Shown one piece after another: positions 26,477-52,160 of a stretch of 64,000 bases of DNA (within the stretch, counting starts at the first letter, position 1; each line of letters opens with the position of its first letter). Below the pieces are notes generated by a model. That model saw only the letters and a list, made by a program, of their open reading frames with translations. It made no database searches and had not been told where the DNA came from. Source of the stretch: Actinoplanes lobatus (GTDB lineage: Bacteria > Actinomycetota > Actinomycetes > Mycobacteriales > Micromonosporaceae); the NCBI RefSeq assembly GCF_014205215.1, contig NZ_JACHNC010000001.1:10102501-10166500 (forward strand), given 5' to 3'. A program made the translations under genes and the position numbers.

Positions 26477-27103
26477 TCAGCATCGGTGGCTATCTCCTCG
26501 TTCGCGCACCGATGGACGCCGCATCGGATACAACGGTGGTCCGTCGAGGACATGGAATGCTGGATGCGGCTGGTAGCCGGACCGCGCGTAGAGGCGTCGG
26601 TTTCGCGGTCCGGTGGCTTCGAGGTAGGCCGCCGTCGCGGTGGCGTCGAGTTGATCGTGACGATGACGCAGCAGGGTGCTGCCGACTCCACGTCGCTGTT
26701 GGTCCGGGTGTACGGCCAGGAGGGCCAGGTAGCAGTGTGGTTGGTCGTACGGGTGATGGTCGTGTATGGCCTGTTCAAGCGCGGAGAACCGAGGGTGGAA
26801 TCGGCCGGTCATGTCTGTGAGTCGCTGCGGATAGTTGGCCAGGTCCGGGAGCGGCTCGCCGTCGATGGGGTACCAGATGGCTGCGGCTGCGGCGTCCGTG
26901 GTCATGTCGATTTGTCCGTGGGTGAGGGCGTGTTCGATGTGCAGGGCGAAGTAGTGCGGGTAGATGCGGGCGCGGGCGTCGAGGTGCGGGATGAGCCAGT
27001 CGGCGAGATCGCCGTGGAGGAATGCCTCGGCCAGCAGTTCGCTGATCGTCTGCTGGTGGGCAGGAGTCGCGGTGCGGATGGTCGGCTGCGATCGGATGGT
27101 CAT
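26477..27103 (-). CDS. GNAT-family N-acetyltransferase
   Basis: A 208-aa GNAT. The acetyl-CoA-binding motif A reads LLAVHPDQQRRGVGSTLLRH (Q/RxxGxG/A) and is followed by YLEATGPRNRRLYARSGYQP, the usual motif B ending. ATG 27103 is chosen because the permease stops 5 bp upstream; the far longer open frame here is only the permease's shadow. The target is unknown; small-molecule detoxification is the most usual role of this subgroup. Last gene of a GPP34-permease-GNAT operon. Confidence 0.88.
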   Translation of the reverse strand: MTIRSQPTIRTATPAHQQTISELLAEAFLHGDLADWLIPHLDARARIYPHYFALHIEHALTHGQIDMTTDAAAAAIWYPIDGEPLPDLANYPQRLTDMTGRFHPRFSALEQAIHDHHPYDQPHCYLALLAVHPDQQRRGVGSTLLRHRHDQLDATATAAYLEATGPRNRRLYARSGYQPHPAFHVLDGPPLYPMRRPSVRERGDSHRC

Positions 27104-27108
27104 GGCGG

Positions 27109-28605
27109 TCACCGCCTGGCCCGTGTCGGCGGCCGGAGGTCGAGGGTGGCGCTGTTGGCGCCGCGTCCAATCGCCGCGTACGCCTGTGGCCTGGTGTTCT
27201 TGAGGATGAGCGCCCACCCCATCCCGGCCGCTGCGGCGACGGCGTAGCTGGCAGGCAGTTGCCAGCGCAGGCTGGAGGTGGGGTCGACGCCGAGCAGGGT
27301 GGCGAACTCGTCGAGCGTCACGAGCAGCACCAGGGCGAGTCCGACGGCGGCGGTGAGGGGTGCGATCAGGGTGCGTCCGGCGCCGAGGTGGTTGCGGTTG
27401 CCGGGTGCGGTGAAGTAGGCGGCAACCGCGGCGGAGGTGGCGGTCATGAGGATTAGTACGCCCAGACCGCCGAGGACGGTGAGCCAGAAGAACAACCGGA
27501 CGATCGGGTCCCAGCCGGCGATGGCGTAGACGGCGAGCACGATCGCCGCGAGGCCGGTCTGCACGAGTGAGCCGGTCAGCGGCGCCCGCGAGCGAGGGCT
27601 GGTGCGGCCGAGGATCGCGGGTAGGACGCCTTCGCGGCCGAGAGCGAAGAAGTAGCGGGCGGCGGTGTTGTGGAAAGCCAGCAGCGCGGCGAACAGGCTG
27701 GTCACGAACAGCAGATGCCCGAGATCCACGACCGTTTGCCCGAGGACAGGCCCCACGAGGGTGAAGATCAGTTCGGTGCCCTGGGCGCGGGCCTGGTCGA
27801 CGATGTGGGTGGGTCCGGTGGCCACGGACATGGCCCAGGAGCAGAAGGCGTAGAGCAGGCCGATGATGGTCAGGGCCAGGTAGGTGGCGCGGGCGACGGT
27901 GGTGTGCGGGTCTTTGGATTCCTCGCTGAACACGGCGGTGCCTTCGAAGCCGACGAATCCCGCGATGGCCACCGCGAGGGCGGCACCGATCCCGGCGGTG
28001 AGCACGTTGCCCGGATCGAGGGTGGCGAACGAGATGCCTCCGGGTGCCGGGTGGGTGATGTGCACGGCGGCGAAGATGACCGCGACGGCGATCTCGGCGA
28101 TCAGCAGGGTGGCCAGGATACGGCTGTTGAGGTCGATGCGGCGCACGCCGAGCAGCCCGACGATCGCCCACGCCGCGTAGGCGCATAGCCACCACGGCGG
28201 GTCCAGGCCAGCACGGTCGTCGAGGAACTGGGCGAGGACAGCACCGAAGCCGCCGTAGAGGCCGATCTGCATGGTGTTGTAGGCCAGCACGGCGACGAAC
28301 GCGGCACCGACACCGGCGGGTTTGCCCAGGCCGTGGGTGATGTAGGTGTAGAATGCGCCGGCGTTGACCACGCGCCGGGACATGGTCACGTAGCCGATCG
28401 AGAAGACGGCGAGCAGCAGGGCGACGAGCACGTACGCGATCGGAATGCTGGTGATCCCGGTGACGGCAAAGCCGGTGGTGGCGCCGCCCGCGACGACGGT
28501 GAGCGGGGCGGCGGCCGCCATCACGGTGAACACCAGCGGCCACACGCCCAGGCGGCTACGCGCGAGGGTGGCGCTGACCGTGTCGGCGGAATGCTGAGCA
28601 GGCAT
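27109..28605 (-). CDS. APC-superfamily amino acid permease
   Basis: A 498-aa inner-membrane transporter with about 12-14 hydrophobic helices, opening with RLGVWPLVFTVMAAAAPLTV and the helix-1 break GGATTGFAVTG. FVGFEGTAVFSEESKDP is the characteristic helix-6 and following motif of amino acid/polyamine permeases. The start is ATG 28605, preceded by GGGGAG; a TTG six codons upstream lies before this Shine-Dalgarno sequence. The substrate is unknown. The neighbouring GNAT could modify what it carries. Confidence 0.92.
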   Translation of the reverse strand: MPAQHSADTVSATLARSRLGVWPLVFTVMAAAAPLTVVAGGATTGFAVTGITSIPIAYVLVALLLAVFSIGYVTMSRRVVNAGAFYTYITHGLGKPAGVGAAFVAVLAYNTMQIGLYGGFGAVLAQFLDDRAGLDPPWWLCAYAAWAIVGLLGVRRIDLNSRILATLLIAEIAVAVIFAAVHITHPAPGGISFATLDPGNVLTAGIGAALAVAIAGFVGFEGTAVFSEESKDPHTTVARATYLALTIIGLLYAFCSWAMSVATGPTHIVDQARAQGTELIFTLVGPVLGQTVVDLGHLLFVTSLFAALLAFHNTAARYFFALGREGVLPAILGRTSPRSRAPLTGSLVQTGLAAIVLAVYAIAGWDPIVRLFFWLTVLGGLGVLILMTATSAAVAAYFTAPGNRNHLGAGRTLIAPLTAAVGLALVLLVTLDEFATLLGVDPTSSLRWQLPASYAVAAAAGMGWALILKNTRPQAYAAIGRGANSATLDLRPPTRARR

Positions 28606-28637
28606 GCAGAAACTCCCCTTCAAGCGGGTCGGCTGGG

Positions 28638-29348
28638 TCAGCGGCGGGTGATGATCGCGTCGCCGACGGCGGCCTCGGTGTGCGCCAGCAGCTCCCGGAC
28701 CGGGGCCGGCGTGTTGACGACGGCGGCACGGAGCCCAGTCTCGAGGTCGGCGGCGTGACCGAGCAGCACCGTCCGGTACAGGTCGGTGGCCAGGATCAGG
28801 CCGCCGAGGACGGTGTCGAACCCGTCCAAGGTTTGGCCCTTCTGTAGGCAGCCGGAGAGGCGGGCCCAGGGCCAGGCAGCGGTGTTCATGTCGCTGGGCA
28901 CATAGCGCACCCGCCGCCCGAGCAGTCGTCGCTCGGTCGTCTGGCGAAGATGTCCAGCCCGGGTCAGCCGGTCGGCGACATCGTGGTGAGCGTTCCGGGC
29001 GAAATAGGCCAGCCAGGTCCGGACCGGCAGGGCGACTCGTTCGGCGGCCAGCCGGTCCAGGGTTGAGTGCGCGAGCGCGTCGATCGGCGGCGCCGTGTCC
29101 ACGATGATCACCTGGCCGCCCGGTAGCGCGAGCCGTCGTGCCAGCACCAGCTCGGCCAGCAAGGCGGCGGCCAGACCCAGACCAGTGACGTGCTCGTCGA
29201 GCAACGGCCGCCCGTCGTGGTCACGGTGAGCGAGGCGGAACAGGTCGTCAGCGACCAGAGGCCAGGTCGGCCGTCGCGGACCGGTTTGCCACGATGCGGC
29301 CACGGCATGCCGGCCTCGGGCCGTCGCGACATTGTCGATGTACGCCAT
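28638..29348 (-). CDS. GPP34 (GOLPH3/Vps74-like) family protein
   Basis: A 236-aa GPP34-type protein. The start region LVADDLFRLAHRDHDGRPLL leads into LGAALLAELVLARRLAL-like helices, and RRVRYVPSDMNTAAWPWARL and DGFDTVLGGLILATDLYRTV are diagnostic segments. Eukaryotic members bind phosphatidylinositol 4-phosphate; the bacterial proteins are abundant in actinomycetes, usually beside regulators, with unknown function. ATG 29348 is used because the upstream extension is Arg/Pro-rich shadow. First gene of a minus-strand operon with the permease and GNAT. Confidence 0.85.
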   Translation of the reverse strand: MAYIDNVATARGRHAVAASWQTGPRRPTWPLVADDLFRLAHRDHDGRPLLDEHVTGLGLAAALLAELVLARRLALPGGQVIIVDTAPPIDALAHSTLDRLAAERVALPVRTWLAYFARNAHHDVADRLTRAGHLRQTTERRLLGRRVRYVPSDMNTAAWPWARLSGCLQKGQTLDGFDTVLGGLILATDLYRTVLLGHAADLETGLRAAVVNTPAPVRELLAHTEAAVGDAIITRR

Positions 29349-29847
29349 GAGCGGATCCCGTCTACCGATGCGGGTGGCCGCTGGCGAGTTCCAGGTAGCT
29401 GGGTGTCGTGGTGTGCACGGTTGCCTCCTCGGGGGTCGCGATATCCGTGGGGTGCGGCCCCGAGACGCGTGGCGGGTAGCGGATGCCGGGCGTGGGCTGG
29501 GGGACCTACGCGGCATCGCCCGTCATGTGCGTCTCGGGGCCTTACCGGTGCGCCGCTGACCAGCCCGGACGTCTTCGGGTGACGTCGGCGATCACGGCGG
29601 CGCGCATCGACGATCCCGTGTCGTTGGTACGGCCGGAAGGACCATGCTGGGGGTGCACCGCGGACCCCACCACGCGGCCCTGGTCGGCGTCGGAACCGGT
29701 GGGTGCGGTGTCGCCCGATGGTGCGACCTCACCGTGGGTGCCCATGGTGGGTGAACCGCACCGGCATCGTTGAGATCACCAGATTTCGATGCCACGCTGG
29801 GTCGATGCCCTGGCCGTACAGGGCTGGTGGTGACGGGAGGTGTGCCG
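29349..29847. other. 500-bp divergent intergenic region
   Basis: This separates GPP34 (minus) from the XRE/TPR regulator (plus), so it must hold both promoters. A loose inverted repeat GGTGCGGT...ACCGCACC spans about 29700-29762, with CACCGTGGGTG and CCCATGGTGGGTG inside it. No ORF here is convincing. Confidence 0.4.
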
Positions 29848-31125
29848 GTGCGCGTCGAGATCGACCCGAGCTGGTGGGTGTCGGGCTCCTGGGAAGGCCG
29901 GCCGATCCGCGACTTCCTGGAGCGCCGCGACGTCACGGCCATCTTCCGGTTCCTGCACGCCCGCGGCATCTCGTACGGCGCCATCGGCGGGCTGGTGGGT
30001 ATCTCCCCGAACCGGGCCGCCGAGATCGCCAAGAACCGCCGGCAGGTCACCGCGTACGAGGTCCTCGAACGCGTCGCCGTCGGCCTGCGCATCCCCCGAG
30101 CCGTCATGGGGCTGGGATGTGAGCCCGCCCCGGCCGTTCCCGCCGAGCCTCACGCCTCTACCGTCGGCCTGGCAGCGCTGCGTGCCCAGCTGGACGAGGC
30201 GCTGGCATCCTCAACGGTGACCGCGAACCAGCTGGAGATGATCGAAGAGGCGACTCACGATCATGTCCGGAGCTATTTGTCCTCCCCACCGTTGACAGTG
30301 CTGCGGGACATTGCCACCGAGTGCGCTGAGGTGCTCACTCTGTCGCGGCGGCGGCAACCCGCCGCGGTCCAAGCCCGCCTGTCGGCCGCCGCAGCGTTGC
30401 TGGCCGCCCTGTCCGCCGACGCCCTGCTCCGGCTCGGCGACGCCACCCACGCCCGGCTCTGGTACCGCACGGCAGCCATGGCCTCCGACGACAGCGGCCG
30501 AACCCGGCTGCGCGTACTGGTCCGGGCGCATGCCGCGATGCTTCCCTACTACTTCGGCGACCCGCGGCAGACCGTTGCCCTGGCCGAACAGGCGCTCGCG
30601 CTGTCCACGACGCCATGCCCGCTGACTGCTCTGGCCGCGGCCTCCCGAGCCAGGGCGCTGGCCCGAATCGGCGCCACCGATCAGGCACGAACCGCGATGC
30701 TGCAGGCCCGCCATCTCTTCGACCAGGCGGGCGAGAGCGACACGAATGCGGCATTCGAGTTCCCGGAACGACGCCTGCTGTTCTACCTGTCCGGGACCGC
30801 CGCCTGGGCGGGCGACCTGCCCACCGCCTACCACCTGCAGGACGAGGCGCTCACGCTCTACCGGGCCAGCCCCGTGCCAGCGATCGATCCGGCACTTATC
30901 CAGATGGACCGATCGATGTGCCTGGCCCGTGAACACCGGACCAGCGAAGCCGCAGCGGTGGCCCGCGAGGCCGTCGCCTGCCTGCCCGAACCGCAACGGA
31001 CCGAGATCGTCCTGTCCCGGGCACGAGACGTTGTCGCCACCGTCCCCGCCGACCAGCGGCAAGGCGCCGTTATCGAGTTGGACGACTACCTGCGCGAGTG
31101 CGGCCGGCGGGCAGCTCTAACCTGA
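29848..31125 (+). CDS. XRE-type HTH regulator with TPR-like C-terminal domain
   Basis: A 425-aa regulator. A helix-turn-helix (YGAIGGLVGISPNRAAEIAK) lies within residues about 20-75 and is followed by 300 residues of helical repeats (DALLRLGDATHARLWYRTAA, TVALAEQALALS, LAAASRARALARIGATDQAR). GTG 29848 has GGGAGG seven bases upstream and is preferred over the upstream in-frame starts. Such HTH-TPR proteins are common near actinomycete biosynthetic and resistance genes. It heads the APH-like gene (39 bp gap) and faces the GPP34-permease-GNAT operon, either of which it might control. Confidence 0.85.
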   Translation: MRVEIDPSWWVSGSWEGRPIRDFLERRDVTAIFRFLHARGISYGAIGGLVGISPNRAAEIAKNRRQVTAYEVLERVAVGLRIPRAVMGLGCEPAPAVPAEPHASTVGLAALRAQLDEALASSTVTANQLEMIEEATHDHVRSYLSSPPLTVLRDIATECAEVLTLSRRRQPAAVQARLSAAAALLAALSADALLRLGDATHARLWYRTAAMASDDSGRTRLRVLVRAHAAMLPYYFGDPRQTVALAEQALALSTTPCPLTALAAASRARALARIGATDQARTAMLQARHLFDQAGESDTNAAFEFPERRLLFYLSGTAAWAGDLPTAYHLQDEALTLYRASPVPAIDPALIQMDRSMCLAREHRTSEAAAVAREAVACLPEPQRTEIVLSRARDVVATVPADQRQGAVIELDDYLRECGRRAALT

Positions 31126-31164
31126 GTCGGGTAAGGACACCGCACCCGGCCGTCAGGAGCGTCC

Positions 31165-32040
31165 ATGTTCGTCGAGGAACGGACCCGACCGGTACTCGAC
31201 GAGATCTGCCACCTCATCGACCGTTTCTCCCACGAGGCGGTTCTGCTCCGGCACCACACAAACGCGGTGTACGCCGTGGGCGACGTGGTGGTCAAGATCT
31301 CCCCGCAGGCAGTCCCGCTCGACCGGGTACACCGGGTCGTCGGTCTCGTGAGATGGCTGCAGGAGCAGGACTTTCCGACCGTCCCGCTGCACCCCGGAGT
31401 ACCGCAACCGCTAGACGTCGACGGGCACGCCGTCACCGTGTGGCAGCGGCTCGACGCCTCCACCACACAGCCGATCACCACCGCCGAACTCGGTCACCTG
31501 CTTCGTCGCCTGCACGCCCTGCCCCTGCCCCCGACAGGGGTGCCCACCGTGCTCGACCCGATCACCGGGATCCGCCGCTCGATCGAGGCCTCCGCGATCC
31601 TTGCCGACGACGACCGTGAACTGCTCGCTCGCCGCCTTCACGATCTCGCACCGGTCTGGAACACGACCATGCCGTTCGGCAGCGGCCTCATCCAGTCCGA
31701 CCCGCAGGTCCGCAACGCCCTGCGCCGCGACAACGGCACACCCGTGCTGGCCGACTGGGACAGCGCCTCCACCGGACCCCGCATGTGGGACATCGCCACC
31801 GTCGCCGTGCACTGCCGCCGCTTCGGAAGCCACGACTTCCCGGACTTCGTCACCGCATACGGACGCGACCCCCGAGACTGGGACCGCTTCGAGGACCTCT
31901 GCCTGCTCCGCGAACTCCAGATGATCGCCACCAACGCCCGCAAGTCAGCTCCCGGCAGTCCCGCTGCGGCCGAAGTTCACCACCGTATCGCCGGCCTCCG
32001 CGAAGACCTGCAGGAACTGACCGCCTGGAGCATCCTGTAG
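31165..32040 (+). CDS. APH-family small-molecule phosphotransferase-like protein
   Basis: A 291-aa protein with the aminoglycoside/choline kinase fold. The N-lobe has NAVYAVGDVVVKIS (ATP-site Lys). TTAELGHLLRRLHALPLP is the usual lid helix. The catalytic loop reads LIQSDPQVRNALRR, keeping Asp and Asn, with Ser where the HGD His usually sits, and LADWDSASTGPRMWDIA is the metal-binding Asp segment. It is probably active on an unknown hydroxyl compound, or is a resistance-type kinase. GAGCG precedes the ATG. It follows the XRE/TPR regulator, so the two probably form an operon. Confidence 0.8.
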   Translation: MFVEERTRPVLDEICHLIDRFSHEAVLLRHHTNAVYAVGDVVVKISPQAVPLDRVHRVVGLVRWLQEQDFPTVPLHPGVPQPLDVDGHAVTVWQRLDASTTQPITTAELGHLLRRLHALPLPPTGVPTVLDPITGIRRSIEASAILADDDRELLARRLHDLAPVWNTTMPFGSGLIQSDPQVRNALRRDNGTPVLADWDSASTGPRMWDIATVAVHCRRFGSHDFPDFVTAYGRDPRDWDRFEDLCLLRELQMIATNARKSAPGSPAAAEVHHRIAGLREDLQELTAWSIL

Positions 32041-32114: not shown

Positions 32115-32732
32115 TCAGGCCCTGCCGAGCGCCTCGTCGATGTGATGCGAGGTGGCCTCCCAGCATGTCCAGGCCGCCCTTCGCGCTTCCTCGACGATGA
32201 ACAACTCGTCGAGGCTGTCGCCCTGTGGCTGGATCCATCGCCAGACTGGAAACGCCTCGGCTTCCTTCTCCCACTCACTGCCCAGAGTCCGGCGCAGTGC
32301 GGGGGCCAAACTGCTCAAGTACTTCGCGACGCGGAGATCACGGCGACGGCGGTCTCCCATTCGGACACCGACATACATGTAAAGCTCGCCGCTCTTGTCA
32401 ATGGGTGGCTGGTGCCACTCGATCGCCGTGGCGGCCGGAGTTACATCGTCAGAGCCGAACCAGTCGCGTTTCGCGATAAGAATTCGTGGCTTCTTAGGAT
32501 TGGTGTCCTCGTCGACCCTTACGACGACGTCGTCGTAGCCACGGCTCTCCGCCTCAACGGTGAGCACCTCGGCCATGCCAAGGAACAGGTCGTGCAACTC
32601 TTGGTTCGCATCCGTCCGGACCCGCGCCCACTCCTCGATCATCTTGAAGTTTTCCAGGTAGAACCGGACGCGTTCGTCCTTGATACGGCCGATGGCCGGA
32701 CCGCCTGATCGCTCCTGAATAGTCATTTCCAT
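32115..32732 (-). CDS. 205-aa protein paired with PD-(D/E)XK nuclease, unknown function
   Basis: A 205-aa soluble protein with EERVRFYLENFKMIEEWARV-like helices, VVVRVDEDTNPKKPRILIAK, GELYMYVGVRMGDRRRRDL and a C-terminal helix. The gene start lies 10 bp inside the end of the nuclease gene upstream, so the two are translationally coupled. I do not recognise a family. As partner of a PDDEXK_4-type nuclease it may be its regulator, inhibitor or specificity factor. Base composition is clearly less GC-rich than in the surrounding operons. Confidence 0.75.
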   Translation of the reverse strand: MEMTIQERSGGPAIGRIKDERVRFYLENFKMIEEWARVRTDANQELHDLFLGMAEVLTVEAESRGYDDVVVRVDEDTNPKKPRILIAKRDWFGSDDVTPAATAIEWHQPPIDKSGELYMYVGVRMGDRRRRDLRVAKYLSSLAPALRRTLGSEWEKEAEAFPVWRWIQPQGDSLDELFIVEEARRAAWTCWEATSHHIDEALGRA

Positions 32733-33421
32733 CTCCGTTTCGTCAGGCGGGACAGCGAACGGCGGTATTCCGCCACAGCGGTTACCTCCGGAGCCTCTTC
32801 CCCTGCGGCCTGCACTGCGTCATCGAGGACGCTCAGTACCCTCGACCACGACAAGCGGTGCCATGCAAGAGCAGCCTGCTCGGTAGTTGTTGTCACGGGC
32901 GCTCGGCCTGAGAGTGTGATGAAGAGCCATCGAACGCCGCGATCCATCCGCCAGTCTTCGTAGAGACGCTGACACTGCCGCTCTGACTCGATAGCGTCGA
33001 TCTTCAACTCCATGACGAGCTTCCACCTGTCCCCGTAGACGACGAGGTCGGCGCGGGAGCGCTCGCGAGAGATCTCGGTTTCCGCAGTTGTGTCGCTGGA
33101 GACTTCGAGTGGTTCGCCGGTAGCCCTGATGAGGCCGACCAGGAAACGGTCGCCGAGGCCGTGGCTGCCCGTTGGATCGCAGAGCCAACGCAGCGCTGAG
33201 CCGTGCGCCAGTTCTTTGCGGTGAAATCCGCAGATACTCATCAAATCGGCGGGGCCATGGGTCCAGCGTCCTTGTAGTCGCAGTCGATCATGCTCGGCCT
33301 TCATCACCGCGAAGCGTGACCGCCACTCGACAACATCCACCGAACTCGTCGCTGGAAGGTTGCGCCACTTCTCGGCGAGCACGGAGAACGTCCTGGGCCA
33401 AGCGGCTGTCTCCAAAGCCAT
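32723..33421 (-). CDS. PD-(D/E)XK nuclease superfamily protein (PDDEXK_4-like)
   Basis: A 232-aa protein. HGSALRWLCDPTGSHGLGDR is the family's N-terminal signature (a WL-DP--SHG-GD motif). The active-site strand pair is RSRADLVVYGDRWKLVMELK, with Asp then ExK, followed by IDAIESERQCQRLYEDW, the Gln-containing helix. All catalytic residues are present, so a nuclease is likely. With its overlapping 205-aa partner it forms a compact two-gene module of the kind found in defence islands. Relatively AT-rich compared with neighbours, which suggests transfer. Confidence 0.8.
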   Translation of the reverse strand: MALETAAWPRTFSVLAEKWRNLPATSSVDVVEWRSRFAVMKAEHDRLRLQGRWTHGPADLMSICGFHRKELAHGSALRWLCDPTGSHGLGDRFLVGLIRATGEPLEVSSDTTAETEISRERSRADLVVYGDRWKLVMELKIDAIESERQCQRLYEDWRMDRGVRWLFITLSGRAPVTTTTEQAALAWHRLSWSRVLSVLDDAVQAAGEEAPEVTAVAEYRRSLSRLTKRRWK

Positions 33422-34427: not shown

Positions 34428-35063
34428 TCAGTCGAAGAGTGTCGCCTGCGCCGCCGGGGTGGTCTTCGGGCTGGGTGGGGCGGCGACAGCGAGCAGGTCG
34501 TCGAGGCTCGGATCGCCGGTCCAGTGCTGCTTGATGAGGGTGTCGAGCAGGAGGGCGGCGCCGATGGTGTCCCAGAGGGCGCGGTGTGGGCGGCTGGTTG
34601 GGGCGGCGGCGTTGACGGTGTCGGTGAGCCGGTGGCGGGTGAGCAGGTCGGTGAGGCTGTTCTTGCCGGTGGCGGGCAGGGTCTTGGCGAGGCGGTGGGT
34701 GTCGATGAGTCCGGCGATGCTGATCGAGGGGCAGCGGCGGTGCAGCAGTCGCCAGTCGACGCCGATGTTGTGTCCGATCAGGTAGGCGCCGTCGAGTCGG
34801 CGGGCCAGTTGCGGTTCGACGTCGTCGAGGGTGGGCGCACCGGACAGGGCGGTGCCGGCGAGGCCGGGTGAGATCCAGGGCCGTGCGGGGATGGGGCGGC
34901 CGGGATCGATGAGGGTGGCGTAGGCGGTGGCGACGTCGGGGCGGCCGGCGATGAGGCGGACGGCGGCGATCTCCAGGATGGCTTCGTGGTCGCCGTCCTG
35001 GGCGCCGCTGCCTTCGAGGTCGAGGGCGACCAGGTTGGTCGCCTCCCGCCAGGTCGTTGCCAT
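34428..35063 (-). CDS. DnaQ-like DEDD 3'-5' exonuclease
   Basis: A 211-aa exonuclease-fold protein. Exo I is LVALDLEGSG (Asp 15, Glu 17), Exo II is YLIGHNIGVDWRLLHRR, and Exo III is SRPHRALWDTIGA (the HxxxxD of DEDDh enzymes). There is no polymerase or helicase attached, so it acts alone on single-stranded DNA or RNA, or on nucleotides. The C-terminus is Pro/Ala-rich and ends ATLFD, a clamp-binding-like tail (QATLFD), so it may bind the DNA sliding clamp; that is inferred. In the operon it sits between the radical SAM enzyme and the reductase. Confidence 0.88.
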   Translation of the reverse strand: MATTWREATNLVALDLEGSGAQDGDHEAILEIAAVRLIAGRPDVATAYATLIDPGRPIPARPWISPGLAGTALSGAPTLDDVEPQLARRLDGAYLIGHNIGVDWRLLHRRCPSISIAGLIDTHRLAKTLPATGKNSLTDLLTRHRLTDTVNAAAPTSRPHRALWDTIGAALLLDTLIKQHWTGDPSLDDLLAVAAPPSPKTTPAAQATLFD

Positions 35064-35089: not shown

Positions 35090-36334
35090 TCAGTCGTCGT
35101 TGAAACGGGCCGCATGCGCGAACCGTTCCCGCACCTGGTCGAACGCATCAGCCTGGCCGTCGGGTGTGCCGTGCCCGGTCAGTGATCGGCCGTGGGCGTG
35201 CAGGAAGTGCGGTTGGTCGAGTTCCCAGATCTGGAATTGCAGGGTGTGCTGCAGAGCGTAGCGGCGTTGTTCGCCGAGGCCGTGGGTCCAGACGTGGCCG
35301 TCCTCGATGAGGAAGTCGCTGTCGTACCCGAACCGGTCGAGGACCTCGCGCATGTCCTGCCCGGTCGGTGGGCGGTGGGCGTCGGCGCAGCGTTTCTGCT
35401 GGTCGAGGGGGCAGATGTCGCAGATTTCCCGTACGCCCCAGTGGCCGTTGTAGTCGGCGGTCTGGTGGGCGTAGGCGACGCCGCAGGAGGTCTTGCGGAA
35501 CAGCGGGGTGGTGATGCCGGAGGCGCGCCAGGCGGCGACGACGTGGGCGTCCAAGCTGTACGGCATGGTCTTGCGGCGGTGGAACTCGTCCTCGCCGTAT
35601 GGAACGGTGACGCCTTGTTCTTGCAGATATGCGGCGTTCTCTGCCTTGTGGTAAAGGCCGGTGAAGTCGATCGCATCAACGTCGCGGCCGATGTCGAGGA
35701 CGTGGGCCATGGTCTGATCGCTGTCGTTCCAGCCGGGGGTAATCGGCCGCCAGTAGAGAATCACGCCGGTGCGCTCGCGGTGCTGGGCAGCGGTGCGGAT
35801 CGAGGTGACGGTGGTGGCGGTCTTGGCGATCGGCTCGATCCGCGGGTCGGTGATCCCGGAGTACGTGAACAGCAGCGTGACCCGCAGATGGCCCAGTTGT
35901 TCGAGGGCAGCCATGTCGTCGGCAGTGACCTTGAACCGGGTAATGATCAGGACGTGATTGGTGTAGCCGCGCTCGTCGAGACTGCGCAGCACCTGGAACA
36001 GGTGTGGTTTGACGCCGGGCAGGAACGGGTCGGTGGCCTTGTTGAACAGCTGGATCGGGGTGACGTGCGGCTGGAACGCCTCGTGGCCGATCAGGTCTTC
36101 GATCGCCTGCTCGGTCGGGACGAGTAGCTGTGGTTGTTTGACGTCGAAGTTGCCCCAGAAGTGGCGTACGCAGTATCCGCAGTCCAGCGGGCAGCCGATG
36201 ATGTGGTTGAGCGACAGGCCGCTCTTGCGGTAGCCGACGTACGCCGCCATGTAGGGATCCAGGCCGGCTTTCAGATCGTCCGGCATGAAGCGCAGTGTCC
36301 TCGGGCCGACGTCGAGGTCCGGGATGATGGTCAT
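35090..36334 (-). CDS. radical SAM protein, spore-photoproduct-lyase-like, with extra Cys cluster
   Basis: A 414-aa radical SAM enzyme. The SAM-binding 4Fe-4S motif is CPLDCGYC (CxxxCxxC; Cys 48, 52, 55). Further features are IQLFNKATDPFLPGVKPH, TSRIRT-like strands and a second group of cysteines near the C-terminus (SCGVAYAHQ, ICDICPLDQQKRCADAH) that could hold an auxiliary cluster. The N-terminal layout resembles the spore photoproduct lyase branch, which repairs thymine lesions by radical chemistry. ATGA overlap with the NDK-like gene. Gene order suggests that it modifies a nucleotide or nucleic acid, but no reaction can be assigned. Confidence 0.85.
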   Translation of the reverse strand: MTIIPDLDVGPRTLRFMPDDLKAGLDPYMAAYVGYRKSGLSLNHIIGCPLDCGYCVRHFWGNFDVKQPQLLVPTEQAIEDLIGHEAFQPHVTPIQLFNKATDPFLPGVKPHLFQVLRSLDERGYTNHVLIITRFKVTADDMAALEQLGHLRVTLLFTYSGITDPRIEPIAKTATTVTSIRTAAQHRERTGVILYWRPITPGWNDSDQTMAHVLDIGRDVDAIDFTGLYHKAENAAYLQEQGVTVPYGEDEFHRRKTMPYSLDAHVVAAWRASGITTPLFRKTSCGVAYAHQTADYNGHWGVREICDICPLDQQKRCADAHRPPTGQDMREVLDRFGYDSDFLIEDGHVWTHGLGEQRRYALQHTLQFQIWELDQPHFLHAHGRSLTGHGTPDGQADAFDQVRERFAHAARFNDD

Positions 36335-36846
36335 CGAGGGTCTCCGTTCGAGGGATGTGGGGCCCGGAGCAGGTGTTTCTTGGCCGGGCCGTACCAGATG
36401 CCGAAGTCACGGGGCACGACCTCGGTGCTGTCGGAGCTGTGGATGAGGTTGTCGACCAGGCGGCCTTCGGCCATCGCCTTGTCGAGGCTGTCAGCGGCGA
36501 ACCGGCCGCGAATGGTGTCCAGCCCGGCGGCGGCCGGGTCGGTCGGGCCGAGCAGTCGCCTCAGCCGTGGCGCGGCGTCGGGGCCGTAGCCGAGGGCGAC
36601 GGCGGCCTGCCGGCCGACATAGATACGGCGAAGTTCGGCGGGCACATCCCGGCCGAGTTGCGCGGACAGCGCCAAGATATCGGCGTAGTGCGTGAAGATC
36701 TGTTCCTCGGTGGGAAAGACGTAACAGACGTCGACCACCTGAAGTTCCTGCTCGACGGCGGTCAGGACCGGGCCGAGCAGGTCACGGGCGAGGCAGTCGG
36801 GTTTGAGCAGGATCACCGTCCACCAGCGCCAGCCGTCGAGGTTCAC
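36331..36846 (-). CDS. nucleoside diphosphate kinase-like protein
   Basis: A 171-aa protein of the NDK fold with an insertion of about 30 residues compared with housekeeping Ndk (about 140 aa). It keeps LLKPDCLARDLLG (KPD, residues 15-17), GPTDPAAAGLDTIRGRFA and the catalytic His 136 in NLIHSSDSTEVV. The usual TIRGDF reads TIRGRF, so one conserved Asp is Arg. GTG 36846 overlaps the ThyA-like stop. It probably transfers phosphate to an unusual nucleoside diphosphate made by the operon. Confidence 0.88.
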   Translation of the reverse strand: MNLDGWRWWTVILLKPDCLARDLLGPVLTAVEQELQVVDVCYVFPTEEQIFTHYADILALSAQLGRDVPAELRRIYVGRQAAVALGYGPDAAPRLRRLLGPTDPAAAGLDTIRGRFAADSLDKAMAEGRLVDNLIHSSDSTEVVPRDFGIWYGPAKKHLLRAPHPSNGDPR

Positions 36847-37847
36847 GGCATGCCGATCCGGTCGGGCCAGCGTGCGGCCATCAGCCACCGGTTGCCCGCG
36901 GTCAGGGCGGCCGTGATGTTGACGGTGACCGGGTCGCCGGTCTGCCGAATCTGCCGGTAGGCCTCGAACAGCAGCAGCACCTGCCGCCAGTAGCCGGACA
37001 CCGGGATCCGGGCAACCGCATCGACGGTCAACGTGGTGCCGCCCAGACGGAGAGCCTGCTCCCACCACAACACGGTGTCCAACTCCTCCGGCGAGGTGTC
37101 CGGCATCTCCGAGCAGGGGAACATCGGAGCTGGTGCCCGGTCGGTTTCGGCCAGGATCGCCTCGACCTTGGCGACGTCGAGGACGTTGATGTGCATCGAC
37201 CCGACGTGGTGGGTGTATGTGCCGACCTCAACGCTGAGACGACGGGCGGCCAGCTCCTGGATCATGGTGAACGAGAACGTGTCGCACAGCAGGCCGATGA
37301 ATGCGTCGTTGCCACGCATGGATGCGGTCGCGTGCAACCGGCCGCCGCGCAGCAGGAACTGCAGCGCGAGAGTGCAGGCCACATCCGGGTTATCGGGATC
37401 GATCAGCTCATCGGGCCGCATGACGAGCATGGCGGCGCGCTTGCTGTCCGGGTCGTGCCGCAGCAGGTCGATGACCCGGTCGAACTGTGACCGGCCGTCG
37501 CTGTCGTCAACGGCGAACAGGCGCGGTCCGTAGGCAGTGCCGGTCAGCCGGATGCCGTCGGCGGAGAGCTTCTCCAGGCGCGGAGCGTAGTAGCCGATCA
37601 TGGCGAGGTCGTCGCAGCCGGAGAGATACCACAGCGCCTCGGCGTGGTTGAAGACGATGTTCGCCCGCCGAGCTACCAGGTACGGCGACCGGCGGACCGG
37701 GTCGGTGAGCCGGAAGCTGACGTTCGGGACCTCCACGGCGCCCTTGCCGCGGCCCCGGGTGTCGTACTCCGGTTGATCGTGGATGCGTCGCAGCACCGCC
37801 ACGTACGCGTCGCCGAAGGTGTCGAAGGTAGCCGGGGTGAGCGTCAT
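36843..37847 (-). CDS. ThyA-family pyrimidine hydroxymethylase/methylase-like enzyme
   Basis: A 334-aa thymidylate-synthase-fold enzyme. Ungapped alignment to E. coli ThyA from the catalytic Cys (Cys 158 here, Cys 146 there) matches the QF (QFLLRGGRL), the phosphate-binding Arg (MRGND, Arg 178), and GLL-D for GLPFN. Asp 189 therefore replaces the Asn (177) that selects dUMP. In T4 dCMP hydroxymethylase the same position is Asp, so a (d)CMP substrate is expected. His 219 follows in SMHIN. The core genes are joined by 4-bp overlaps. MilA of mildiomycin biosynthesis (CMP hydroxymethylase) is a natural comparison. Whether this enzyme adds methyl or hydroxymethyl cannot be told. Confidence 0.85.
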   Translation of the reverse strand: MTLTPATFDTFGDAYVAVLRRIHDQPEYDTRGRGKGAVEVPNVSFRLTDPVRRSPYLVARRANIVFNHAEALWYLSGCDDLAMIGYYAPRLEKLSADGIRLTGTAYGPRLFAVDDSDGRSQFDRVIDLLRHDPDSKRAAMLVMRPDELIDPDNPDVACTLALQFLLRGGRLHATASMRGNDAFIGLLCDTFSFTMIQELAARRLSVEVGTYTHHVGSMHINVLDVAKVEAILAETDRAPAPMFPCSEMPDTSPEELDTVLWWEQALRLGGTTLTVDAVARIPVSGYWRQVLLLFEAYRQIRQTGDPVTVNITAALTAGNRWLMAARWPDRIGMP

Positions 37848-38944
37848 CGCGGTCTCCCCGCCGTCGGCATGCCGAGTGTGTGCAAGGTGTCGAGCAGGAC
37901 CGCGACCTGGGTGCTGAGCCGGTACGGCTCCAACAAGCGCAGGCACGTGCGGATCAGATCCCGGTGGGCCGGCGTCCCGGCGATCGACTGCAGCCGGCGC
38001 AGCTTCTCGATGACCTCGCGGCCGTCGCGGACGTGCAGCTCCGGTGGCGTGAACCGGTCGGCGGCCACGGTGTCGGCCGGGGTCAGCGGCAGGCATCCCT
38101 GGGTGACGGCCTCGAACAGCCGCGACGTCTGATGCCCGACCGTGCGGTAGCGCTCCGGCAACAGCAACACCGTCGCCAGCGCCTCGCGGTGGATGTCGGC
38201 GACCTCGTCGAAGCCGCAGCGGCCGGTGAAGTTCACGTGCGGCCACGGCTCGGTGTCGGTCCACTTCCCGGCCACTCGGTGAGTCACCTGGGCGGCGGCC
38301 GGCGCGAAGAACCTGTCGAACGCGTCGTCGCGGCCGTACTGGTTACCGACGTACACCAGCGGCATCGGCCGGTCCGCTGCCGCGAGCCGATACGGGTCGG
38401 CGTGGTCGAGCAGCGTGTCAGGGACCGGGCAGGCCAGCGTGAACGCGCCCGGCGTGGGATGCAGCGCGTACTCCCCGACGCGTACGTTCGCCCTCGCCCG
38501 CAGCGGGTCATCGGCTGGTAGCCGCCGGTCCATGTCCCAGATCACCGTCGGCGTGGCCAGGCCGATCGTGTAGTGCTCAATCAGCGCCTGCTGCCGGTGC
38601 AGGTCGCAGGTGTGACCCGGCGTCCCGCACACGGTGGTGTTGCGGCCCGGCAGCGGCCACCGCCATTCGAACACCACCGCGTCCAGCTCCGGCAACCCGG
38701 CAGCAAACCGGTACCGGTCGTCCAGATCGATGCCTGCCTCCAACCGGTCCCGGTCGGCCTGCATCAGCACGACCTCGTTCCCGGCGGCTTGGAGCGTGTC
38801 GATCACCGCGCGGCAGTAGGCGCGTGACCCATCGGGAGTGTCCAGGATCCCCGGAGTCAGGAAACCCCATGCGCTGTAGCCGATTCGCCTCCCGGCCGGA
38901 GGCGACACCACTTGTCGGCGAATCGTGGAAGAAGAGATGGTCAT
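37844..38944 (-). CDS. glycosyltransferase-like protein (CgeB/GT1-type look), first gene of operon
   Basis: A 366-aa soluble protein. ATG 38944 has a perfect AGGAGG seven bases upstream. It has an N-terminal Rossmann-like half (RIGYSAWGFLTPGILDTPDG, with GNEVVLMQADRD and LDAVVFEWRWPLPGRNTT). The C-terminal half has SRLFEAVTQGCLPLTPADTV, which resembles the nucleotide-sugar-binding E-x-G-x-P segment of GT-B enzymes. Sugar donor and acceptor are unknown. It overlaps the ThyA-like gene as ATGA. If the call is right, it could glycosylate the 5-hydroxymethyl pyrimidine made next door, as phage glucosyltransferases do. Confidence 0.6.
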   Translation of the reverse strand: MTISSSTIRRQVVSPPAGRRIGYSAWGFLTPGILDTPDGSRAYCRAVIDTLQAAGNEVVLMQADRDRLEAGIDLDDRYRFAAGLPELDAVVFEWRWPLPGRNTTVCGTPGHTCDLHRQQALIEHYTIGLATPTVIWDMDRRLPADDPLRARANVRVGEYALHPTPGAFTLACPVPDTLLDHADPYRLAAADRPMPLVYVGNQYGRDDAFDRFFAPAAAQVTHRVAGKWTDTEPWPHVNFTGRCGFDEVADIHREALATVLLLPERYRTVGHQTSRLFEAVTQGCLPLTPADTVAADRFTPPELHVRDGREVIEKLRRLQSIAGTPAHRDLIRTCLRLLEPYRLSTQVAVLLDTLHTLGMPTAGRPR

Positions 38945-39901: not shown

Positions 39902-40360
39902 ATGCTGATTCGCGCGACCCGGGCGGTTCTGGCTTCGATGCTCGACGAGGCCGGGGTAAGCTCTCGTGCGATTTCCACGGCCGACGTTCGGACGACTGCC
40001 TCAACGTTTCGGCAGTTCGCCCCGCTCCCCACCGAGGACGCTGCGCCGCCCGAGGAAGACGGTGACGGGATCCTCGCCGAGTTCGGGAGCCACGACTTCC
40101 GTGGCGAGCGTGAATTCTCGACTAGTCTCACGCGGCAGTTCACCGAGATAGGTGACAAAGACGCGATGTGGCAGTTGGGCTGCGCTTTCTACTGGGCGCC
40201 GCAAGCGGCAACCGACGTTCTCGAGTCTGGACACATGTGGCCCCTCGGTAGGGCGCTCGACGAATTCTTCGACAAACTCGTCAGCCTTCCCGGCTGGGCT
40301 TGGGCGTTGGGCGACGTGCAGGTTCCCCATGGCCTCGTGATCACCCTCGACCGGACATGA
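39902..40360 (+). CDS. hypothetical protein, 152 aa
   Basis: A soluble 152-aa protein with FGSHDFRGEREFSTSLTRQF, MWQLGCAFYWAPQAATDVLE and GWAWALGDVQVPHGLVITLD. Composition and codon pattern look coding. The Trp-rich C-terminal half is distinctive, but I cannot name the family. The start codon lacks a strong Shine-Dalgarno sequence. It sits among other short accessory genes of unknown role. Confidence 0.55.
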   Translation: MLIRATRAVLASMLDEAGVSSRAISTADVRTTASTFRQFAPLPTEDAAPPEEDGDGILAEFGSHDFRGEREFSTSLTRQFTEIGDKDAMWQLGCAFYWAPQAATDVLESGHMWPLGRALDEFFDKLVSLPGWAWALGDVQVPHGLVITLDRT

Positions 40361-40484: not shown

Positions 40485-40898
40485 TCAGGCGCCCCTGCGC
40501 CCGGCAGAGTAAAAGGCATACAGCGCGTTGAGCTGTCCGATCCAGAAAGCTTGCTTCGCCGTTGCTGATGACCGACGCGGCAGCATCCCCAACTCGACTG
40601 CCAACGCATAGAAGCCGGGACCGGCATCGTTGGTATTCAAATACTGAACCAGAGCCGATATCAGCAGGTTTGTCGTTGGACGATTGCGCTCCACGATCAA
40701 ACCGAGCAAGTGACCCATCGCCGCACGTTCGCTGTCCTGATCGAAGTCGAATCCACGTAAGCCGGTCCGCCGACGTAGGGTGGCGTCGAGTTCCGTATAT
40801 GTCGTGGTCTTCTCAAGGCGTGCCCGTTCGACGAGGAATGCCAAGCCGACGGAGGTCAACTGGCCCCACTCCTCGTCGCTGCGTCCGTAGCCAGCCAT
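40485..40898 (-). CDS. hypothetical protein, 137 aa
   Basis: ATG 40898 follows a GTGGGGAC ribosome binding site; a GTG four codons upstream lies inside that site and is less likely. The protein has TSVGLAFLVERARLEKTTTY, TELDATLRRRTGLRGFDFDQ and AAMGHLLGLIVERNRPTTNL, all coding-like. It is helical and charged, and similar-looking proteins occur in actinomycete accessory DNA. Function unknown. Confidence 0.65.
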   Translation of the reverse strand: MAGYGRSDEEWGQLTSVGLAFLVERARLEKTTTYTELDATLRRRTGLRGFDFDQDSERAAMGHLLGLIVERNRPTTNLLISALVQYLNTNDAGPGFYALAVELGMLPRRSSATAKQAFWIGQLNALYAFYSAGRRGA

Positions 40899-40910
40899 CG
40901 TTGTCCCCAC

Positions 40911-43375: not shown

Positions 43376-43764
43376 CACAGAGGGGTGCCATGTCCGGACT
43401 CCGCGAGGCAACCCATCGTCACTCTATGTCACTAGAAGTACGATATGAAGTCCGCGCCGCATCTCTGGCGGACAGAATTCGATGGCAAGAACCTGGCCCG
43501 GAACATGATCCGATGACGCGGACAACTTCATTGGCAACGGACAACACCATCGGCGTCGAGGAACATGATCGGGCTGGTTCCGGTCGTGGGAATGGGCCTC
43601 TGGCGCTCAGAACCATCGGGCAGTCGGTCACGCGCATAGCCGATCGACGGTGGGCTGACACGGGCGTGGGACTCGGAAGAGCCGTGCCCGCCCGCAATGC
43701 GAATCGTGCGGACGCCCCCAACAATCGTGAAGCCATTCAGCGCGCGGTGATCCACGATGGGTGG
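43376..43764. other. IS110 right end and flank, no gene
   Basis: About 390 bp after the transposase stop. The right end of the element should fall in the first 100 bases, but no repeat marks it. An 11-mer GGAACATGATC occurs twice, about 60 bp apart, around 43.50 and 43.56 kb. The frame that crosses this stretch into the next gene is not protein-like. Confidence 0.4.
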
Positions 43765-44280
43765 ATGGAACGCGATACCGCTCTCGTCCGGATGCAGGAG
43801 GCCGCCGCGCTGTGGAGCGTCGGCCAGGTCACCGCGGCCGACCTCGTCAGCCTTGCCTGCGAACTGCTGGTCACCGGCTTCGACGGGAAGAACCTTGCCA
43901 TGCTCGCCGGTGTACACGCGCGCAACGCGGACGAGGAGGTTCCCGACCTGCTGCAAGCCGCGTTAGAAGGCCTGGGGCTCAGCTACTATCCAGCGGGCAG
44001 CAATGCCGGGCTCGAGGCCACCGTCAGGATCTTGGCCTCGCGTGTCTTGGCTGGCCGGATGTCACCGCTGGACCTCGCCACCTGGGCGCACTCGAATATC
44101 GGCCACGATCGGTTACCCATTGCCGAACGCCTCGTGGACCTCGATGACATGTACGACATTCTCGATTACATCGACATGACTGAACAGGACCTCGACAACG
44201 AGATCCGCGCGGAAGCCCGCCGGATCACTGCGACTACCGGAGACAGCGCCAGTTCCGTCCTCCCGCCCGCGAGTTCCTGA
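43765..44280 (+). CDS. conserved-looking actinobacterial protein, 171 aa, unknown function
   Basis: It starts at ATG 43765 (GGGTGG upstream). Largely helical and acidic: ALVRMQEAAALWSVGQVTAA, LVTGFDGKNLAMLAGVHARN, ADEEVPDLLQAALEGLGLSY and FGHDRLP-like NIGHDRLPIAERLVDLDDMY. It resembles uncharacterised actinobacterial proteins with the same EEVPDLL and GHDRLP segments, recalled by eye without a search. No catalytic motif. It is the last gene before the detached tRNA end. Confidence 0.7.
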   Translation: MERDTALVRMQEAAALWSVGQVTAADLVSLACELLVTGFDGKNLAMLAGVHARNADEEVPDLLQAALEGLGLSYYPAGSNAGLEATVRILASRVLAGRMSPLDLATWAHSNIGHDRLPIAERLVDLDDMYDILDYIDMTEQDLDNEIRAEARRITATTGDSASSVLPPASS

Positions 44281-48958: not shown

Positions 48959-48968
48959 CCGATGCTCC

Positions 48969-51900: not shown

Positions 51901-52160
51901 CGCCGGAACTGCACCTTCTCCCGTGCCCAGCGCAGCAGATGGGTCTTGCCGGTGCCGTGCCGGCCCTCGATCACCAGGCCCAGCGGACTCGTGAGACGGC
52001 TGCTGTCGGCGTCGTCGAAGGCCTGGAGAACGGCCGCGCCGGCTTCCCCGTTCAGTTCGTCGAGGTGGATCTCCAGGGCGGTCCAGACGTCTTCCGGCGT
52101 GGGTGCCCAGTCGAGACGGCGCAGCGCGGTCAGCGCTCTCCGCTGAGCCGGCTCGATCAC
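48969..52160 (-). CDS. fused double ATPase: N-terminal AAA/ORC-like plus C-terminal HerA-like
   Basis: A 1,063-aa protein with two P-loops. Near residue 65 lies LVIEGRHGTGKTHLLRWARE, followed by an AAA lobe with TGPSMLAVDQIDVIFA as Walker B. After a linker of seven identical TTAAP repeats comes a HerA/FtsK-like domain: SVIFAGSGSGKTVLIRRLVE, AIVLDPNNDLARLGD, GGLFVMDEAQTFAPSGG and GLGLIFATQAPKGIHNRIVG. HerA ATPases form hexameric DNA pumps that partner nucleases. Here the motor is fused to its own loader-like ATPase and coupled to an AIPR nuclease. GTG start, overlapping the upstream stop by 3 bp as GTGA. Confidence 0.88.
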   Translation of the reverse strand: MIEPAQRRALTALRRLDWAPTPEDVWTALEIHLDELNGEAGAAVLQAFDDADSSRLTSPLGLVIEGRHGTGKTHLLRWAREKVQFRRGYFFLMGMADGRTFWPTIVQTYLRGLRRSGAYRHSQLSVFLERLSERAEIPMALRQQVGGRKPLTPDTLDAFVAKLRTTDPETGRECRHTLRALVLLASTDADLADLGEAWLLGLPDLEPAELSAWGLPRTGKSAQDTAVEISRLIALTGPSMLAVDQIDVIFAQSASGAASDLAADLGNGLMDLREKLARTVTVVACLPTSWERITQRALVSVSGRFRRETSLERLPSRETAESLIAARFAPFFDVVEFKPPYYTWPILPEAFDRARDHTPRSLIQRADEHVRHCLAMDEVIPLADLDERYETFAPPVAAGDLARLGERLAQLRAGADVAAALAPQTEDAEMSRLLEAGLRTWAVEQGDGSGRFTVQPVEQGNPSAHAWLCETLDAEIEDEAHWYLRGLSHTHHRAVQARLARLRGLAELNPAVSKRRAVLIRNGPWPTGPVSAKVRKEFLDLGGIITGVSPDDLRTFAALAVLLEENDPALPEFLRAGRPAGNTTLLTEIFGPPSGDGAGRPGPAPTGPPTTAAPTTAAPTTAAPTTAAPTTAAPTTAAPTTAAPTTAVPVDEPAGGPGIQVGTVAESGSPVSLTLESLRKHSVIFAGSGSGKTVLIRRLVEECALHGVSAIVLDPNNDLARLGDAWPEQPESWRDGDAERARAYLDGTDVVVWTPRRESGRPLVLRPLPDFGAVLDEPDEFALALDAAVATLAPRARMAANTAKADRGRAVLRKALEHFGRTGGGRLADFVDLLTDLPDEVTSLGRARELAADMAETLKAAMVNDPLLGGSGTPLDPGALFTPAPGRRARVSVISLIGLPGDEQRQSFVNQLQMALFSWVKRHPAGDRPLGGLFVMDEAQTFAPSGGTTACTESTLALASQARKYGLGLIFATQAPKGIHNRIVGNAATQFFGFLNSPTQIAAAKEVAQAKGSAVLDISRLRTGQFYAVTEGRPFRKVSTAMCLTYHPPSALTTEEVLQRARD
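50233..50337. repeat. 15-bp tandem repeat, seven perfect units, inside the AAA-HerA gene
   Basis: Seven identical 15-bp units (GCGGCAGTGGTCGGC on the plus strand) encode TTAAP repeats in the linker between the two ATPase halves; an eighth, altered unit (TTAVP) follows. Perfect identity at DNA level suggests slippage and variable copy number between strains, with the frame kept because the unit is a multiple of three. Confidence 0.95.

Follow-up and report, generated by a model that had tools for sequence, protein, structure and literature searches.

The window considered here is a stretch of 64,000 nucleotides from Actinoplanes lobatus (contig NZ_JACHNC010000001.1, positions 10,102,501 to 10,166,500 of the forward strand), and our subject is a tight operon of six genes on its minus strand, which includes genes for a protein similar to thymidylate synthase (ThyA), a nucleoside diphosphate kinase (NDK)-like protein, a radical S-adenosylmethionine (SAM) enzyme and a DnaQ-like exonuclease. 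The genes, from the first one of the operon onward, are the following (coordinates are those of the window).

37844..38944, minus strand: GT-B glycosyltransferase-like protein, 366 amino acids (operon gene 1)
36843..37847, minus strand: predicted nucleotide 5-hydroxymethylase of the MilA family (ThyA-like), 334 amino acids; 284 bits to MilA (5jnh) by phmmer
36331..36846, minus strand: NDK-like protein, 171 amino acids, catalytic His136; PF00334, 58 bits
35090..36334, minus strand: radical SAM enzyme, 414 amino acids, with Cys48/52/55 and Cys284/305/308/316; recognised by Cys motif and fold
34428..35063, minus strand: DEDDh 3'-5' exonuclease-like (DnaQ-like) protein, 211 amino acids; PF00929
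33621..34403, minus strand: aldo/keto reductase, accessory; PF00248, 168 bits

Each of the first three junctions is a 4-base overlap; gaps of 26 and 24 bases separate the genes at the next two. Among the operon proteins, matches above the cut-off were obtained with the Pfam models PF00303, PF00334, PF13524 (barely, 25.7 vs 25), PF00929 and PF00248. The preliminary description of the locus, made from the sequence letters, had named overlapping NDK-like, glycosyltransferase-like and radical SAM genes with DnaQ-like and aldo/keto reductase genes downstream; coordinates, Pfam matches and folds bear this out and confirm its observation on the operon and the ThyA-like protein. The host genome (10.4 Mb) encodes a separate, ordinary ThyA elsewhere.

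Residues 6-334 of the ThyA-like protein align to residues 4-331 of MilA, that is, over the full length including the C-terminal domain, whereas the best ordinary thymidylate synthase scores 48 bits and the T4 deoxycytidine monophosphate (dCMP) hydroxymethylase gp42 scores 37 bits in phmmer comparisons. Of the two enzymes named earlier for comparison, MilA and gp42, it is MilA that the protein matches (284 vs 37 bits). The closest relative from a named species belongs to Actinoplanes flavus (92%). The alignment to E. coli thymidylate synthase spans residues 15-230 (5-219 of the latter), and that to thymidylate synthase 4dq1 is gapless from the catalytic Cys to residue 239. The positions relevant to catalysis and substrate choice are listed below as alignments place them, with the roles of the first three according to PMC5175136.

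37374..37376, minus strand: codon of Cys158, predicted catalytic nucleophile (MilA Cys155)
37281..37283, minus strand: codon of Asp189 (MilA Asp186), predicted cytosine selection; Asn in host ThyA
37440..37442, minus strand: codon of Lys136 (MilA Lys133), predicted ribose preference
37311..37313, minus strand: codon of Gly179 (MilA Ala176; Ser in host ThyA)
37185..37187, minus strand: codon of Asn221 (MilA Tyr218)

The claim that Asp189 stands where ordinary thymidylate synthases carry the Asn that selects deoxyuridine monophosphate holds good, as this column is Asn in both 4dq1 and the host ThyA, and neither alignment places an Asn of the operon protein there. Arg/Ser/Asn/Tyr of the host ThyA correspond to Lys/Gly/Asp/Asn of the operon protein; the Asp, Lys and Gly of the latter, together with the second, canonical ThyA in the genome, rule out an ordinary ThyA. 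According to PMC5175136, Lys133 and Ala176 of MilA favour ribose and so give the preference for cytidine monophosphate (CMP), Asp186 marks the enzymes that use cytosine, and Tyr218 together with His216 binds the 2'-OH of CMP. Lys, Asp and His at MilA positions 133, 186 and 216 were found in all 27 operon enzymes compared (the window protein and its relatives from 26 loci, L023-L048). Position 176 is Gly in all 27 and Ala in the protein of locus L108 and in six proteins from Streptomyces plasmids; the Arg/Ser pair of deoxyribose-specific enzymes (gp42 residues according to PMC5175136) was not found, the operon enzyme having Lys/Gly. As to Tyr218, it is replaced in 34 of 34 operon-type enzymes compared: by Asn in 26 of the 27 and in the six Streptomyces plasmid proteins, by Ala in the remaining one, and by Gly in L108. 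By homology, the ThyA-like protein is a full-length, predicted CMP 5-hydroxymethylase of the MilA family, and, because Lys, Asp and His are kept and Tyr218 is replaced (with the roles given in PMC5175136), its likely substrate would be a cytosine ribonucleotide held in a changed sugar pocket. A CMP-like substrate seems likelier than dCMP, since Lys136 and the small residue 179 argue for a ribonucleotide. The earlier suggestion that the operon holds what is needed to make, phosphorylate and decorate a 5-hydroxymethyl-cytidine nucleotide fits the gene set and is refined here to a ribonucleotide.

Like MilA and BcmA (of the mildiomycin and bacimethrin pathways), the operon enzymes show full-length homology with the C-terminal helical domain and keep Asp, Lys, Cys, Glu and His; they differ in the replaced Tyr218, in Gly instead of Ala176 within their own clade, and in their company. 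Among 22 other MilA relatives (L049-L068, L070 and L071; the fragment L069 was left out), which have Lys, Ala, Asp, His and Tyr at every position that could be read (L068 and L070 are partly unreadable), a MilB-like neighbour was found by profile search in 20 loci and adjoins the MilA gene in 19 of them; the profile was built from six of these 22 loci, and in one miss, L067, the stretch starts beside the MilA gene. No MilB-type N-glycosidase was detected by profile search in the window or in the stretches at hand of the 26 operon loci, and a search of the host's own genome, carried out without a positive control, gave no match. If the defence proposal made below is right, the operon would also show a ribonucleotide hydroxymethylase of the MilA type at work in a pathway that releases no base. 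In a FastTree phylogeny with MilA-type enzymes and the host ThyA, the operon-type enzymes form a clade of their own (32 tips, support 0.991), these tips being 24 loci, L108, the window and six database proteins whose genomic context was not read; L044, L047 and L067-L070 were left out. When the Streptomyces plasmid proteins were added, the operon enzymes still grouped together, with a support of only 0.067, so that a common origin of the operon enzymes is tentative. The MilA-MilB pairs of L050-L054, L058, L061, L062, L087 and L116 (from Xenorhabdus, Leuconostoc, Brevibacterium, Saccharopolyspora and others) look like bacimethrin clusters, several of them being accompanied, as judged by eye, by ThiD-like, NUDIX or methyltransferase genes.

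These relationships bring in the main rival to the explanation that we favour below, namely that the operon is a compact cluster for a nucleoside antibiotic or antimetabolite, in which a hydroxymethyl-cytidine nucleotide, made as in mildiomycin or bacimethrin biosynthesis, stays in nucleotide form, is modified by the radical SAM enzyme and glycosylated, and is then released, with the exonuclease or a kinase providing self-resistance. We regard it as possible, though doubtful. It ranks first among the rivals since antibiotics are what the MilA family and the 4'-thiothymidine precedent serve, and since the Streptomyces plasmids described below show no recognised defence neighbours: MilA and BcmA act in such pathways (PMC5175136), a MilB-like gene lies in the loci of 20 of the 22 other MilA relatives, and a three-gene cluster of radical SAM enzyme, kinase and NTPase, thmABC, makes 4'-thiothymidine (PMC12691670), the operon resembling it as a minimal set of radical SAM enzyme, kinase and nucleotide-cleaving enzyme. 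A search of 11 genomes, which need not contain ThmA, gave one match, in a Streptomyces. The absence of MilB from what was searched speaks against such a cluster. An albucidin-type cluster was rejected: PMC7074753 describes two radical SAM genes with a reductase and a thymidylate kinase further off, and its text as seen by us mentions no exonuclease.

In the NDK-like protein the active-site His, Asn and Arg are present in 27 of 27 sequences, Lys in 26 and Thr in 17 (including the window protein); we take these residues to have their usual roles in the NDK motif. In L035 the NDK-like part (103 residues aligned) shares a reading frame with the hydroxymethylase, and P0080 is clearly a fusion protein. 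No Pfam or NCBIfam model matches the radical SAM protein above the cut-off; this protein was recognised by its C-x3-C-x2-C motif and by the radical SAM fold (TIM barrel) of its model, which has a mean pLDDT of 78 (below 50 in the Cys loop itself) and lies near pyruvate formate-lyase-activating enzyme and spore photoproduct lyase. All seven Cys are present in 24 of 28 sequences of the near set, the exceptions being L032 and L035, with one Cys replaced in each, and the partial L037 and L047. They also recur in 19 of the 20 sequences of a wide set (relatives of 43-51% identity, the window included), the twentieth being annotated without its N-terminus. The 19 full sequences share 93 invariant positions, and the whole constitutes a single radical SAM family across three phyla. 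Homologues of the radical SAM protein at E<=0.001 number 2071. The exonuclease keeps its five catalytic residues in 26 of 26 operon proteins, with Asp replaced by Glu in one case, and in 18 of 18 proteins of the wide set, where the third Asp is Glu in eight.

T4 itself combines a hydroxymethylase, a kinase and a glucosyltransferase, a set that the operon matches. The profile of the glycosyltransferase finds T4 beta-glucosyltransferase (BGT) with an E-value of 0.003, over the single stretch 135-302 of the profile; no other PDB entry is matched by profile below E 0.7. The modelled structure of the glycosyltransferase lies close to T4 BGT and alpha-glucosyltransferase, BGT being the nearest in one of two comparisons, narrowly (first by VIA-align). 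This likeness, and the restriction systems present in the window, fit a hypermodification of the host's own DNA or RNA, in which hydroxymethylcytosine would be incorporated and glucosylated as in T4, either against restriction or for marking self. The ribose signature of the hydroxymethylase and the absence of the glycosyltransferase gene from three of 26 loci count against this explanation, which we consider unlikely. The hypermodified DNA base suggested in the preliminary description has thus gained the T4-BGT-like fold, although immunity, as argued below, is a likelier function than either this or the nucleoside antibiotic suggested with it.

The association of the operon genes is more than chance, because the genes present keep the same order in 26 of 26 actinobacterial loci, which, by their genus names, we take to belong to Micromonosporaceae, Frankiaceae, Streptosporangiaceae and Thermomonosporaceae. 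Hydroxymethylase, NDK-like and radical SAM genes occur in all 26 (the radical SAM gene being truncated at the contig edge in L037 and split in L047), the exonuclease in 25 (in L037 the contig ends first), the glycosyltransferase in 23 (in two pieces in L035) and the aldo/keto reductase in six. Among 250 genomes of the host family, the hydroxymethylase (E<=1e-40) was found in 18, the radical SAM gene in 19 and both in 16, always as neighbours; of these 16, G449 carries a remnant and G502 an in-frame stop. In two genomes the sole relative of MilA is a more distant one (41% and 47%), with no MilB found in the one such region read, and three have the radical SAM gene only, with an in-frame stop in two. 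In 394 genomes of the class, including that of the window, the hydroxymethylase was found in six (one of MilA type, with MilB) and the radical SAM gene in 14. This distribution is the pattern of an accessory system that is gained and lost. In L085 (G449) and L084 (G031) the operon or its radical SAM gene survives only in broken form, which points to loss.

The radical SAM enzyme and the exonuclease extend further than the hydroxymethylase. Other actinobacteria have radical SAM-exonuclease operons, followed by a thymidylate-kinase-like gene in L082, L110, L112, L113 and L115 (checked with Pfam in L110 and L113), by no kinase gene in L111 and L114, and by another P-loop gene with an aldo/keto reductase in L109; no hydroxymethylase was present in the stretches read around them. 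XRE/DUF5753 and DUF6879 genes lie upstream of L113 (Pfam) and of several others (by eye). On plasmids, 24 records match the radical SAM protein at at least 48%, of which 16 regions were read, the other eight being mostly from Labrenzia, Roseibium and Rhizobium. The radical SAM-exonuclease pair is present in 15 of the 16 regions (Nostoc lacks the exonuclease, and the radical SAM gene of the Nocardia region is annotated as two pieces), an AAA/ATP-binding gene adjoins in 15 (in L151 its place is held by a 'hypothetical' gene), an HD-domain gene occurs in five and an aldo/keto reductase in seven. The P-loop proteins of six plasmid regions and of L038, L042 and L109 are mutually alike and unlike the thymidylate-kinase-like protein; three of them are AAA_28 by Pfam. 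Hydroxymethylase and NDK-like genes stand in front of the core in all six Streptomyces plasmid regions and in none of the other ten. A deaminase and a DHFR-family gene lie upstream of the Nocardia cassette (L124, 2973-4117).

Partners that act on nucleotides (kinase, exonuclease, HD or MazG-like proteins) would also suit a cassette that senses, salvages or destroys modified nucleotides made by phages instead of making its own, and a kinase that detects nucleotides modified by phages has been proposed (PMC10853773). The presence in 26 of 26 loci of a hydroxymethylase with a kept active site, though with its gene split into two frames in three cases, makes this explanation very unlikely. A phage origin of the operon was also considered and rejected: a scan of viral contigs gave six pattern matches, none confirmed as a relative, the radical SAM enzyme and the glycosyltransferase have no phage match, and none of the 1682 phage records matched by the hydroxymethylase reaches 60% identity.

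In the plasmid flanks, where defence genes were counted within 9 kb (the Streptomyces regions were read for 6-9 kb on each side), recognised defence genes lie beside the core in six of the ten non-Streptomyces regions.

Rhizobium plasmid: LmuA, 176 bits
Agrobacterium vitis plasmid: GajB, 748 bits; anti-phage dGTPase, 487 bits; ThsB, 378 bits
Labrenzia (L122): type IIG model, 95 bits; the near-identical L149: type IIG by annotation
Sinorhizobium chiapasense (L146): Shedu and ABC-three-component systems, by annotation
S. meliloti (L148): DncV-like cyclase with patatin and ThiF, by annotation

A gene annotated as 7-cyano-7-deazaguanine synthase (L146, 14634-16016) lies in the defence island around the S. 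chiapasense cassette as well. On chromosomes, flanks scanned singly revealed a type I-G CRISPR-Cas system (L033), a type IIG enzyme (L042) and LmuA-LmuB (Lamassu) directly behind the exonuclease (L046), and Gabija in the sister-type locus L113. The window is a defence island as well, with type I and type IV restriction and AbiU.

8310-9929, minus strand: type IV methyl-directed restriction enzyme, 361 bits
16723-24883, plus strand: type I restriction-modification genes (two methylases, specificity and restriction subunits), PADLOC scan
32723-33421: PDC-S26-like gene, 66 bits
47237-48958, minus strand: AbiU/AIPR-type gene, 368 bits

Because the core without hydroxymethylase sits beside anti-phage genes in six of ten non-Streptomyces regions, we consider defence likelier than the two functions proposed in the preliminary description. 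We see an even chance that the operon represents an undescribed defence system that modifies nucleotides and acts like viperin, a view based on homology, active-site residues, conserved gene order and the defence surroundings of part of the relatives; from these we infer the substrate, the order of steps, the product, its effect on phage and the role of the exonuclease. In the core common to all variants, the radical SAM enzyme would alter a nucleotide, most likely in its sugar, the small kinase would raise the altered nucleotide towards the triphosphate, and the DEDDh exonuclease would remove it from the ends of the host's own nucleic acids (or free it). In the actinobacterial variant the MilA-like enzyme would hydroxymethylate C5 of a CMP-type nucleotide and the NDK-like enzyme would make the triphosphate, both steps being predicted by homology, and in one clade the hydroxymethyl group may then receive a glucose from the GT-B enzyme. 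As the Tyr that contacts the ribose has been lost, it seems that the radical SAM enzyme acts ahead of the hydroxymethylase, which would then be presented with a CMP already altered in its sugar. Phage nucleic-acid synthesis would be poisoned by the resulting nucleotide, much as viruses are by the ddhCTP (3'-deoxy-3',4'-didehydro-cytidine triphosphate) of viperin. In its widest form, which we put forward somewhat more tentatively, the proposal is that a separate radical SAM family, together with a kinase and a proofreading exonuclease, produces a toxic nucleotide and lets the host tolerate it, as a prokaryotic immunity of a new type carried on plasmids of at least Actinomycetota and Alphaproteobacteria (and, without the exonuclease, of a cyanobacterium), and that actinobacteria have upgraded it to a ribo-cytidine nucleotide that is hydroxymethylated and, in one clade, glucosylated, thus turning chemistry like that of phage T4 against phages.

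Eukaryotic and prokaryotic viperins offer a parallel, as a radical SAM enzyme with a nucleotide kinase (which we presume to be the partner gene of viperin), the nucleotide analogue of the operon being our proposal. The radical SAM protein has no sequence match to viperin, whose fold takes rank 30 in the model comparison. Removal of ddhCMP from RNA by an exonuclease, nsp14, is documented (PMC9415739). PMC13092281 reports a validated defence unit found with DefensePredictor that shares with the operon a thymidylate synthase domain; 'radical' and 'exonuclease' are absent from its main text, and a figure legend also names a dNMP kinase, not necessarily of the same unit. PMC13118837 proved unrelated. 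Immunity by nucleotide analogues thus has precedents, though none was found for this gene family, and in view of these the proposal is not categorically new. The earlier statement that no described system has this gene set agrees with what we found in open-access full texts; a later or paywalled account is possible. If correct, the proposal would add a second, chemically different nucleotide-analogue immunity to that of viperin, its built-in exonuclease may explain how the host survives its own poison, and the product would be a potential new natural antiviral nucleotide.

Several observations weigh against a defence function. Four of the ten non-Streptomyces plasmid regions (Gluconobacter, Mesorhizobium, Nostoc and Nocardia) have at most toxin-antitoxin, helicase and nuclease genes; the six Streptomyces regions, which carry the hydroxymethylase, have no recognised defence neighbours, toxin-antitoxin apart; and single scans of the flanks of five of the 26 chromosomal loci gave three definite systems and nothing in L028 and L044. 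PADLOC 2023 contains no family matching the radical SAM, hydroxymethylase, glycosyltransferase, NDK-like or aldo/keto reductase proteins, nor models matching the plasmid radical SAM enzyme and kinase, and the operon exonuclease matches only its DEDDh and PDC-S48 models. A batch PADLOC scan at 1e-20 yielded 52 families for 110 flank genes vs 7 for 110 random genes of the carrier genomes, but this enrichment is only a hint, because, among the 25 of the 52 families listed, 22 contain two or three proteins apiece and probably reflect one and the same trio of kinase-like proteins. The hydroxymethylase gene is split over two frames in L044, L046 and L047. The resistance-like and regulatory neighbours (APH, GNAT, XRE) fit an antibiotic cluster too, for which the GNAT, permease, GPP34-like and APH genes near the operon and the 'natural product' DUF labels in four of six Streptomyces plasmid regions also speak. 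The flanks vary and show no recurrent exporter when compared, and the same core without hydroxymethylase sits in plasmid defence islands, both of which tell against such a cluster.

As for the remaining genes of the window, the AbiU/AIPR-type gene lies beside a gene for a 1063-residue protein with weak HerA/mad8 matches (47237-52160, minus strand). The gene at 61730-62950 matches PDC-S01, yet a random control gene does so too, and it was not counted as a defence gene. The proteins encoded at 32115-32732, 39902-40360, 40485-40910, 28641-29348, 43747-44280, 10123-11262 and 52157-52789 have no PADLOC match. A trio of GNAT, permease and GPP34-like genes (named by eye) occupies 26477-29516 on the minus strand and recurs at differing positions in L023, L024, L025 and L027. 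Beside the operon lies a pair of genes for an NsdA-family regulator and an APH phosphotransferase (29770-32040, plus strand), which is kept in L023, and another APH-regulator pair stands beside the Streptomyces cassette L153.

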